From NCBI RefSeq assembly GCF_900313065.1, contig NZ_OMPU01000011.1, positions 186,001-250,000 on the forward strand: a stretch of DNA of 64,000 nt. The letters run 5' to 3'. Below, one piece after another: positions 7,183 to 31,920 of this stretch. The notes below the pieces were generated by a model. The model was given only the letters and a program-made list of their open reading frames with translations, was not told where the DNA came from and searched no databases. Made by a program: the position numbers and the translations under genes. The DNA is from Kiloniella sp. EL199. GTDB lineage: Bacteria; Pseudomonadota; Alphaproteobacteria; Kiloniellales; Kiloniellaceae. Every line of letters begins with the position of its first letter. Position 1 is the first letter of the stretch.

Positions 7183-7506
7183 CTAGAAAGGTAATTTCAT
7201 GCCAGCAGGAAGGTTAAGACCGCCGGTCACGTCCTGCATTTTTTCCTGTGTGGTCGCTTCGACTTTTGAACTTGCATCATTCACAGCAGCCAAAATCAAG
7301 TCTTCAAGAACTTCGACATCATCCGCATTAACAAGCGATGGATCGATTTTGATAGAACGGAGATTATATTTGCCACTCATAACTACCTTGACCATACCAG
7401 CACCGGCAGCACCCTCGATTTCCAAGTCAGCCAACGCTTCTTGCATTTCCGCCATTTTGCTCTGCATCTGCTGAGCTTGCTTCATTAAGCCGGCCAGATT
7501 TTTCAT
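7183..7506 (-). CDS. YbaB/EbfC family nucleoid-associated protein
   Basis: Small DNA-binding protein of 107 residues, normal for the family. It starts with an amphipathic helix rich in Met, Gln and Lys ([18 protein letters not shown]), followed by the beta-rich core ([18 protein letters not shown]). The start codon overlaps the dnaX stop by one base (TGATG), which implies coupled translation. The conserved position between dnaX and recR supports the call. Confidence 0.93.
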
Positions 7507-9413
7507 CAGATTTCATCTCCATTATTAAGGCGCTGTAGTAATTCCGCATCATCAAGATCCGGATCTTCCATATCTGGGTCCATGATCTGATCAATCAAGG
7601 ACTTTTCATCCACGCCTTCTACTACATAGTTGTCAGGCATCAAGCCTTTTCGGCTGATTAGTTTCGTGCCCGGGAATAATTTGAGGACAGATAAAACAAG
7701 CGGATCTTGCATCGCCTTATCATCAAGCGCCTGATTGATCTGCTTTTCCTGCGCCCGGATAGTATCAACGCCTTCTTTAGCCGTTTCGGTAACTTTCCAG
7801 GTTTCTCCCGTCCACTCGCTCAAATGACGTTGGATTTTTGCAGATAAATCACGGGGCGCATTCTCAGCAGGTTTATACTCTATTTCGCCCGGGATAAAGC
7901 GAATCAGATGAACATCATTTCCCAAATAAGCAGACAAGATTCTCTCGCCCCGGTCTCGGGCCAGATTAATAACATCCCGGAAGGTTTTTGGTGATGCGTA
8001 AACCTCTTCTTCAAACTCGACATCCGGGGAAGTATTATCCACCACCAGTTCCGGTTTTGTTGCCGCACCTGATGAGACCGCGACACCCGGGTCCATGGCC
8101 ACAGCCTGACCAGTACCTGCTATCCCCCGCACAGATTTTGATGAACCCGTTGAGATTGTCGCGCCTTGGCCGCCAGCTTTATTTTGGACGCCACCAGCAG
8201 GGGCGTTACCCGCTGGAGCGTCCTGGAGCTTTTTTATGAGATCCCCCGGGGTTGGAAGGTTACTCGCATAAGCCAAACGGATAATAACCATTTCGGTTGC
8301 TTGCAACGGATGAGGTGCAATTTGAATTTCTCCCAATCCCTTCAGCAACATTTGCCAGGTTCGAGCCAGAAGAGGCATGGAAAGCTTTGCGCACATCTCC
8401 CCACCACGAACGCGCTCGGCTTCGGGGATACCCGGTGCTTCCAAAGTTTGGGGAACCAGTTTGGCACGGGTCAAAAGATGGCTCAGTTCCAATAGGTCCT
8501 TCATTACAACAAGAGGTTCAGCCCCCCCGTTATAAAGGTCGGACAAAATGTTCAAAGATTCCGGACAATCACCTTGCATCAACGCATCATAAAGATCGAA
8601 AATTCGGGTCCGATCTGCCATACCAAGCATATGGCGAATGGGCTCACTCTCGATCTTCTCCCCCCCTCCGAGGGCAATTGCCTGATCAAGAAGTGACAAT
8701 CCATCACGCGCAGAACCATCGGCAGCACGAGCAAGAAGACCAATGGCTTCTTGCTCAAATTCGATTTTCTCTTTCCCAAGGATCATTGTGAAAAGCTTAA
8801 TCAGCTCTTGATGTTCCAAACGTCTGAGATCAAAACGCTGACAACGTGAGAGAACGGTTACAGGTACTTTGCGAATCTCTGTCGTCGCAAAAATAAAGAC
8901 AACATGCTCAGGAGGTTCTTCCAGTGTTTTCAACAATGCATTAAAGGCACTGTTGGAAAGCATGTGAACCTCATCGATAATGTATACTTTCTTGCGCGCA
9001 GAGACTGGGCGATAACGTACAGATTCGATCAACTCGCGGATGTCACCCACGCCAGTACGGCTCGCCGCATCCATTTCCATCACATCAACATGACGATCTT
9101 GCGCAATCGATGTACAGCTCTCGCATACACTACATGGATCAGCCGTCGGGCCACTTTGTCCATCGACACCGATACAGTTCAACGCTTTGGCAATGATACG
9201 GGCTGATGTTGTCTTCCCAACACCGCGAACACCAGTTAAAATGAACGCATGGGCCAGACGATCTGTATCAATCGCATTCGTTATTGTTTGAACAAGTGCG
9301 TCCTGACCATAGAGATCACTGAAAGAGGCAGGTCGATACTTTCGCGCCAAGACCTGATAAGCTGCGGTGGATTCGTTTTCCGAGTCCGCTGATTCTGTAG
9401 AAATATCGCTCAT
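7506..9413 (-). CDS. dnaX: DNA polymerase III subunits tau (and probably gamma)
   Basis: Clamp-loader ATPase of the replicative polymerase. The full 635-residue reading (tau) has Walker A GVRGVGKT (61-68), a zinc motif CSVCESC (94-100) preceded by Cys80, the DEVH Walker B, and the SRC sensor in VLSRCQRFD. Domain IV-V sequence after about residue 440 is variable, as usual. At codons 393-395 a frameshift heptamer followed by a strong stem could yield a 402-residue gamma product (separate entry). The first residues are a Ser/Glu-rich tail. It is the first gene of dnaX-ybaB-recR. Confidence 0.96.
8186..8247 (-). other. programmed -1 ribosomal frameshift signal in dnaX
   Basis: Read on the minus strand, the heptamer A AAA AAG (8235-8229) is in the correct phase: codons are ATA AAA AAG. 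A GGGGGA run lies 6 bases upstream (8247-8242) and could pair with 16S rRNA. Five bases downstream starts a stem: GGACGC (8223-8218) with GCGTCC (8191-8186), then CCAGC (8216-8212) with GCTGG (8198-8194), then GGG with CCC. In the -1 frame seven codons follow and a TAA stop occurs at 8208-8206. This matches the layout that makes gamma from E. coli dnaX. Confidence 0.8.
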
Positions 9414-9564: not shown

Positions 9565-9665
9565 GGTGAGAGGCTGAACCACGACCCGCGGCAAACTCGT
9601 TACGGCTGCTTCCTTCCGGACCTGACCGGGTTGGCGAGCGCTACGCCCATAGCCAACCTCTCGCC
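9565..9665 (-). ncRNA. ffs: signal recognition particle RNA (4.5S type)
   Basis: Scaffold RNA that binds Ffh and targets membrane proteins. The minus strand carries the universal tip GGTCAGGTCCGGAAGGAAGC (9628-9609) with its GGAA-type tetraloop region. The flanking sequences pair to give one long hairpin of about 100 bases, with GGCGAGAGG at the 5' end and CCTCTCACC at the 3' end. Ends are inferred from this pairing. A promoter and a terminator bracket it. Confidence 0.93.
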
Positions 9666-30795: not shown

Positions 30796-31004
30796 CACGT
30801 TCTAATTATCCCTTATCTTCAATGCATACATTGAAGATAACGTTCCTAAATTTAAGCTGATTGAATTCCGAGAGATACATCAGACATCTCATCAAAGCAT
30901 AAACAGACATACTGATTACACTTATTCCAGCAGCTTGGCTCAAAGGCACGCCACAAACGGATGTCCGTCACCAATGGTACTCCCCGCCCTTTGGTCTAGT
31001 GACA

Positions 31005-31188
31005 TTATGCCGGCAGGTCTCCTGGCTCACGGATCGTTGCTCAATCACCAAACCTTCCCGGCATTAAACTTTTCAGTCCTGCCAGTGGTTATAATTGGTA
31101 AGAACTCACCGTTTACAGTTGCGGGGGCAGCCACGGTTCAAGATCCCCTGATGGGTAGATCTCTCCGTGTTCCCTTTTAATCCCCGGA
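31005..31188 (-). promoter_or_regulatory. cobalamin riboswitch controlling the cbi operon
   Basis: On the minus strand the conserved elements occur in order: AGGGAACACGG, the core TGCCCCCGCAACTGTAAACGG, an ACCACTGGC stem, CCGGGAAGG, and the B12 box AGCCAGGAGACCTGCCGGC (about 31025-31006). A GTCAC...GTGAC hairpin (31003-30967) follows and may be the expression platform. It sits in the 5' leader of the DUF4198-cbiM-cbiL-cbiQ-cbiO genes, so cobalamin should shut the importer off. Confidence 0.93.
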
Positions 31189-31213
31189 CGACTTCATCCA
31201 TGGGGAACCATGC

Positions 31214-31564
31214 ATGGCGCGAGTTTATGCGGAGAAACAAAATCCTGCAAGTCCAAGATTTCAAAAAGATCTCGCCATTGATTTAGCCATTCGTGCATGG
31301 ACATAAGCAGATCATCAAGTGAGGGATGTTGTCTCCAAAGTCGATGAAATTTGCATTAACATTCTGATTGAGATGTACCAGAAAGCTTCTGACCTGTCTC
31401 AGGAAGCCGCACGTAATTATGCCGTAGTTGAGTACATCGGATTCTACAACCTGTTCCCCAATGCCCTGGATAGCTGAGCGCGTGATCTTGCCTCTAACGA
31501 CATAATTAAATTGATCTGTCCGCACGAAAAAGAGACACTGCGCCGGAATCGGTTTTTCGGATGA
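31214..31564 (+). pseudogene. possible degraded gene between the two riboswitches
   Basis: One + strand frame of 116 codons starts at an ATG (31214) and reads as plausible protein (MARVYAEKQNP..., then SKVDEICINILIEMYQKASD, then YAVVEYIGFYNLFP) but is broken by in-frame TAA at 31304 and TGA at 31475. I do not recognise the family. The opposite strand is open for 129 codons over much the same bases, but part of that frame reads through the riboswitch core, so it is less likely to be a gene. A decayed gene is an inference from amino-acid texture only. Confidence 0.35.
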
Positions 31565-31577
31565 AAATTTGATCCGG

Positions 31578-31762
31578 GAATAATAGGGAACACGGAGAGA
31601 TCTACCCATCAGGGGATCTTGAACCGTGGCTGCCCCCGCAACTGTAAACGACTTAAAGCTTCTTAAAACCACTGGTATGTTTCTGAGATAATTGAAGTCT
31701 CTGGAACTTCATACCGGGAAGGAACAGTACTCTTACGTTGTAAGCCAGGAGACCTGCCGATT
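31578..31762 (+). promoter_or_regulatory. cobalamin riboswitch controlling second DUF4198 gene
   Basis: A second, + strand copy of the element: AGGGAACACGG, TGCCCCCGCAACTGTAAACG, ACCACTGG, CCGGGAAGG and the B12 box AAGCCAGGAGACCTGCCG (31742-31759). About 65 bases are nearly identical to the minus-strand copy, so the pair forms an inverted repeat. A GTCAC (31767-31771) to GTGAC (31815-31819) hairpin follows, as in the first copy, before the coding start at 31921. Confidence 0.93.
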
Positions 31763-31920
31763 TAACGTCACCTTTCTGATGAACGGGGTGTTCATTAGGG
31801 CGGTTTTCCGTCGAGTGACGTGCCTGTCGATAGTGGCAAGGCGCGGTTCTATACTGATTGATCTAATCGGTGCCTAACTCGCACTGCCATTGTCATAACT
31901 TTTTAGACAAGGCGCGTACC

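Follow-up and report, generated by a model that had tools for sequence, protein, structure and literature searches.

The C-terminal part of tau, the full-length product of the replication clamp-loader gene dnaX, contacts other parts of the replisome, and the need for a short DnaX form in cells has long been argued. To our knowledge, only one member of the Alphaproteobacteria has been studied for its short DnaX, which is made there by protease cutting. This species, Caulobacter crescentus, uses ClpXP proteolysis and has no frameshift site (PMC7566177, PMC5422525, PMC5009743); an earlier, sequence-only reading of the DNA described here had rightly pointed to proteolysis in it. In E. coli, by contrast, the short form, gamma, comes from −1 frameshifting at A_AAA_AAG. 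This heptamer is one of the motifs most prone to slippage in that species (PMC4066793), and its strong tendency to shift there is ascribed to the weak pairing of the only tRNA-Lys with AAG (PMC5009743). Thermus has a further tRNA-Lys, one that serves AAG, and has been suggested to rely on transcriptional slippage rather than frameshifting (PMC5009743).

Here we describe a block within the dnaX gene of Kiloniella, a marine member of the same class, that is very probably a programmed −1 ribosomal frameshift signal giving a gamma-like subunit. Our literature search, with most subscription papers outside its reach, found no report of dnaX frameshifting in Alphaproteobacteria.

Anatomy of the probable shift site in Kiloniella dnaX

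We analyzed a window of 64,000 nucleotides from Kiloniella sp. EL199. In the list of its open reading frames, dnaX occupies 7506-9413 on the minus strand and encodes 635 amino acids. Downstream lie ybaB/ebfC and then recR, the same gene order as in E. coli, and a bacterial small SRP RNA gene sits directly upstream (9565-9662, minus strand). Elsewhere in the window stand two cobalamin riboswitches in divergent orientation, with about 300 bases between them (30995-31228, minus strand; 31533-31775, plus strand). The gene and the elements of the block are as follows.

7506..9413, minus strand: dnaX, tau-like full-length product of 635 aa (TIGR02397, 422 bits)
8206..9413, minus strand: predicted frameshift product, gamma-like, 402 aa with the tail KK-APGRSSG
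8243..8247, minus strand: GGGGG, a possible internal Shine-Dalgarno-like element, 7 nt ahead of the heptamer
8229..8235, minus strand: slippery heptamer A_AAA_AAG, codons 393-395 (ATA AAA AAG), in the slippery phase
8186..8223, minus strand: stem-loop, putative stimulator, 15 pairs (7 + 8) with one bulged base and a 7-nt loop
8206..8208, minus strand: TAA stop in the −1 frame, within the loop of the stem, kept in all eight Kiloniella species compared

The sequence-only reading had placed the heptamer in the phase used by E. coli dnaX, with a two-part stem starting 5 bases downstream, and both placements were confirmed in the sequence. Every coordinate of that reading that was checked proved right. 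The spacer between heptamer and stem is CTCCA, and the stem has a folding energy of −27.7 kcal/mol. Translation likewise bore out the predicted end of the short product: seven codons (APGRSSG) follow the heptamer in the −1 frame before the TAA at 8208-8206, so that the product would be 402 residues long. Pfam places domain III of the Kiloniella protein at residues 256-396 and the C-terminal domain, DUF3646, at residues 475-586, and the structure of E. coli gamma (1JR3) aligns over residues 18-390. Since the 402-residue product retains domains I-III and ends close to the end of domain III, it would comprise the whole clamp-loader module without the C-terminal part.

An internal Shine-Dalgarno sequence is a stimulator of −1 shifting and is not mandatory for it. 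Such stimulation has been reported for sequences 9-14 nt upstream of the shift site (PMC5009743), and the GGGGG of Kiloniella, at 7 nt, falls outside this range. A Shine-Dalgarno-like role is therefore doubtful, and the G-run is perhaps suboptimal or irrelevant in that respect. Its duplex with the anti-Shine-Dalgarno CCUCC is calculated at −8.6 kcal/mol, versus −6.3 to −7.4 kcal/mol for E. coli dnaX, and the CCG GGG codons at the G-run are invariant in all eight Kiloniella species. RNAalifold also pairs the G-run with the CUCC of the spacer, a pairing that may be due to chance. The earlier description of a complete cassette was borne out for the heptamer, the stem and the −1 stop, but it was too strong as a whole, because GGGGGA lies 6-7 nt, not 9-14 nt, from the shift site.

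Chance expectation and conservation within the genus

In the 52 larger open reading frames of the window, to which this estimate of the background rate is confined, in-phase A_AAA_AAG occurs 4 times in 17,871 codons. Only 0.05% of 53-nt coding windows (n = 5,630) fold to −27.7 kcal/mol or better. When the same peptide was recoded with random synonymous codons drawn by local codon usage, 2.2% of the recodings folded as well, the native stem beating the other 97.8%. These frequencies of heptamer and folding would not by themselves prove a signal, and conservation is the real test.

The whole block of heptamer, stem and −1 stop is present in eight of eight near-complete Kiloniella genomes, among them K. 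laminariae (L038/L039); the ninth genome is a 77% complete assembly from which dnaX was not recovered. Within the genus, DnaX protein identity goes down to 75%, and about 44-50% of dnaX synonymous codons are identical between the three Kiloniella clades. We took the cassette from the coordinates of the earlier reading, which run from codon −4 to codon +16 relative to the shift site, and compared it with the rest of the gene. Fourteen of its 17 amino-acid-invariant codons are identical across the eight species, versus 2.27 expected from the same amino acids in the rest of dnaX. This degree of identity was reached in none of 200,000 simulations, and the cassette is the top-scoring window of dnaX. 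Four codons for alanine and two for proline do not vary among the eight species; three of the former and both of the latter lie inside the cassette. Synonymous constraint begins at the G-run just upstream of the heptamer and stops with the stem, and the linker that follows diverges freely.

The heptamer, the spacer and the −1 stop are invariant in all eight species. The stem has 13-15 pairs, always 5 nt from the heptamer, with folding energies of −21.6 to −27.9 kcal/mol, and the position of its bulge is shifted in the K. laminariae pair. The sequence-only reading had proposed aligning dnaX from related genera and looking for conservation of these elements beyond coding needs. The heptamer, stem and −1 stop are indeed kept beyond coding need throughout the near-complete Kiloniella genomes, but they are absent in the related genera. 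As for the stem pairing, which was part of the same proposal, the stem is kept in all eight species, while compensatory changes are scarce: we found one double change (U-G to G-C) and some broken pairs. Covariation is scarce because the stem is almost invariant, and covariation tests had little power. The putative role of the stem is thus argued from its strength and invariance, not from covariation.

A second block under strong synonymous constraint was seen in the eight species at 7584-7643 (minus strand), roughly 80-140 bases upstream of the stop codon of dnaX. It may be a promoter inside dnaX, or a regulatory site, that serves ybaB-recR, and a sigma-70 scan of this block on the dnaX strand gave no promoter match.

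Distribution in the class and the tRNA-Lys setting

We looked across 229 evaluable distinct alphaproteobacterial dnaX genes and found in-phase A_AAA_AAG around or after the end of domain III in the eight Kiloniella only; none of the 221 other linkers carries the heptamer in phase. Searched in 385 alphaproteobacterial genomes, a 20-base pattern around the site matched in Kiloniella alone. At the positions of the two lysines, the nearest genera have K-Q, E-R, D-R or Q-R. Because the heptamer and the 20-base pattern are confined to Kiloniella, the putative frameshift signal is genus-specific and, measured against the age of the class, young. By the best reading it originated in Kiloniella or shortly before the genus did, separately from that of E. 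coli. Kiloniella counts as a single evolutionary origin.

Other dnaX linkers of the class hold motifs of different kinds. The Nisaea linker (L095, L113) carries G_GGA_AAG, on which E. coli shifts very efficiently; a −1 stop follows after one codon, and a stem begins only 2 nt downstream. This candidate was seen in two near-identical species. Runs of nine As lie just past domain III in dnaX of L224 and L237, with −1 or +1 stops nearby, and could be Thermus-like transcriptional slippage sites. The linker of G255 (L222), from another family, has an in-phase T_TTA_AAG. Its stem, at −33 kcal/mol, begins 6 nt further on, and the −1 frame stops after a single codon. None of these features is kept in its congener or its family, and we regard the G255 site as due to chance or species-specific rather than as a conserved frameshift site.

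The genome of Kiloniella sp. EL199 has 41 tRNAs, including two tRNA-Lys genes, both with the anticodon UUU; across Kiloniella the tRNA-Lys(UUU) genes often stand in a tandem pair. When Kiloniella genomes were searched with a tRNA-Lys(CUU) probe from a sister genus, only tRNA-Lys(UUU) and other tRNAs matched. We found tRNA-Lys(CUU) in 42 of 47 scanned non-Kiloniella members of the order, and the five members without it are fragmented or incomplete assemblies. Class-wide, 34 of 125 genomes (27%) have no strict CUU match, and no such cassette was found in those CUU-lacking genomes outside Kiloniella that were examined. Judged from these gene sets, the branch on which tRNA-Lys(CUU) was lost is also the one on which the cassette was gained. 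This correlation is one coincidence and not a statistical series.

We propose that ribosomes at A_AAA_AAG would be slowed by the stem standing at the mRNA entrance, and that the sole tRNA-Lys(UUU), a weak reader of AAG, would re-pair with AAA after slipping back by one base. A fraction of the ribosomes would then add A-P-G-R-S-S-G and stop. The outcome would be a 402-residue gamma-like subunit (domains I-III, no C-terminal region) beside the 635-residue tau. Slippage itself, the rate of shifting and a use of this gamma in the clamp loader are what we infer from the block.

In sister genera, tRNA-Lys(CUU) should hinder slippage on AAG. We offer, as a tentative and possible history, that loss of tRNA-Lys(CUU) in the ancestor of Kiloniella made A_AAA_AAG slippery, that dnaX captured the site, and that frameshifting replaced an earlier route to gamma, perhaps ClpXP. 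If true, this would be a case of convergence in which the tRNA set gated the change from one mechanism to another for the same protein. With tRNA set and slippery site changing together, Kiloniella offers a direct, testable case of how a decoding apparatus permits or forbids frameshifting.

Other explanations and comparison with known dnaX systems

The anatomy of the block, its conservation, the synonymous constraint and the tRNA set are observed directly in the genomes. The block might instead be a conserved RNA or DNA element that has nothing to do with frameshifting, such as a regulatory hairpin, an internal terminator or a promoter, with the phase of the heptamer and the −1 stop incidental. 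Synonymous constraint alone proves only selection on nucleotides, and the other constrained dnaX block, at 7584-7643, may be an element of this sort. We nevertheless consider it improbable for the cassette, where the constraint runs from just upstream of the heptamer to the end of the stem, and where heptamer, spacer and −1 stop do not vary. Scans of either strand found no promoter- or terminator-like site on the cassette, and there was no credible match to an Rfam family; the only Rfam match at the site, to Giardia U2, is meaningless. On the opposite strand the stem is followed by T6, and this arrangement, with a gap of 5-6 nt between stem and T run, failed the terminator scan.

Gamma might also be made by ClpXP processing, as it is in Caulobacter, a member of the same class (PMC5422525), and the cassette would then be minor or vestigial. 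This seems improbable to a similar degree, since a vestigial signal would not keep 14 of 17 codons invariant beside a diverging linker.

Transcriptional slippage on the A run is less probable still. The site is an A homopolymer, and Thermus dnaX does use slippage (PMC5009743), but the run has only six As in all eight Kiloniella species, versus nine in Thermus (PMC3711429), and slippage of this kind needs neither a strong downstream stem nor an in-phase heptamer. Lookalikes such as that of G255, absent from its congener and family, show that single cases can mislead, but a chance resemblance to a frameshift cassette is scarcely credible for a block common to eight species, under extreme synonymous constraint, whose in-phase A_AAA_AAG occurs in 0 of 221 other alphaproteobacterial linkers.

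Read as a programmed −1 frameshift signal, the Kiloniella block can be set beside the three described routes to a short DnaX. Caulobacter crescentus belongs to the same class and has a gamma-like short DnaX, but makes it by ClpXP proteolysis and from a gene with no frameshift site. Thermus thermophilus resembles Kiloniella in having two DnaX products from one open reading frame with an A-rich site. It differs in having A9 and two tRNA-Lys species (PMC5009743, PMC3711429), whereas Kiloniella has A6 with a stem and one tRNA-Lys species; a run of about nine or more As, the mark of the Thermus type, was found in none of the eight Kiloniella species, all of which have A6.

The block would work like that of E. 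coli. The gene is the same, A_AAA_AAG stands in the same phase, and it is accompanied by a short spacer, a strong stem-loop and a near −1 stop; the short product keeps domains I-III, and there is a sole tRNA-Lys. The position is different: the Kiloniella site, at codons 393-395, lies directly after domain III, about 50 residues before the place of the E. coli site, where gamma has 431 aa. Kiloniella has seven extra codons in the −1 frame versus one in E. coli, and its G-run is spaced at 7 nt versus 10 nt. The stems are unrelated in sequence, with −27.7 kcal/mol for Kiloniella versus −19.7 kcal/mol for the E. coli control in a window of the same size. RefSeq labels the E. coli site 'DnaX frameshifting element', and the Rfam covariance model of that element gave no match to the Kiloniella site even at E <= 10. 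Given the nonhomologous position in the protein and the lack of a match to the Rfam dnaX element, an independent origin of the Kiloniella signal is the natural reading.

A further lineage with the mechanism of E. coli, evolved anew at a different position of the protein, would support the idea of selection for gamma itself. Frameshifting in dnaX by a −1 shift is known from E. coli; what Kiloniella would add is a convergent origin and the tRNA background of the site.
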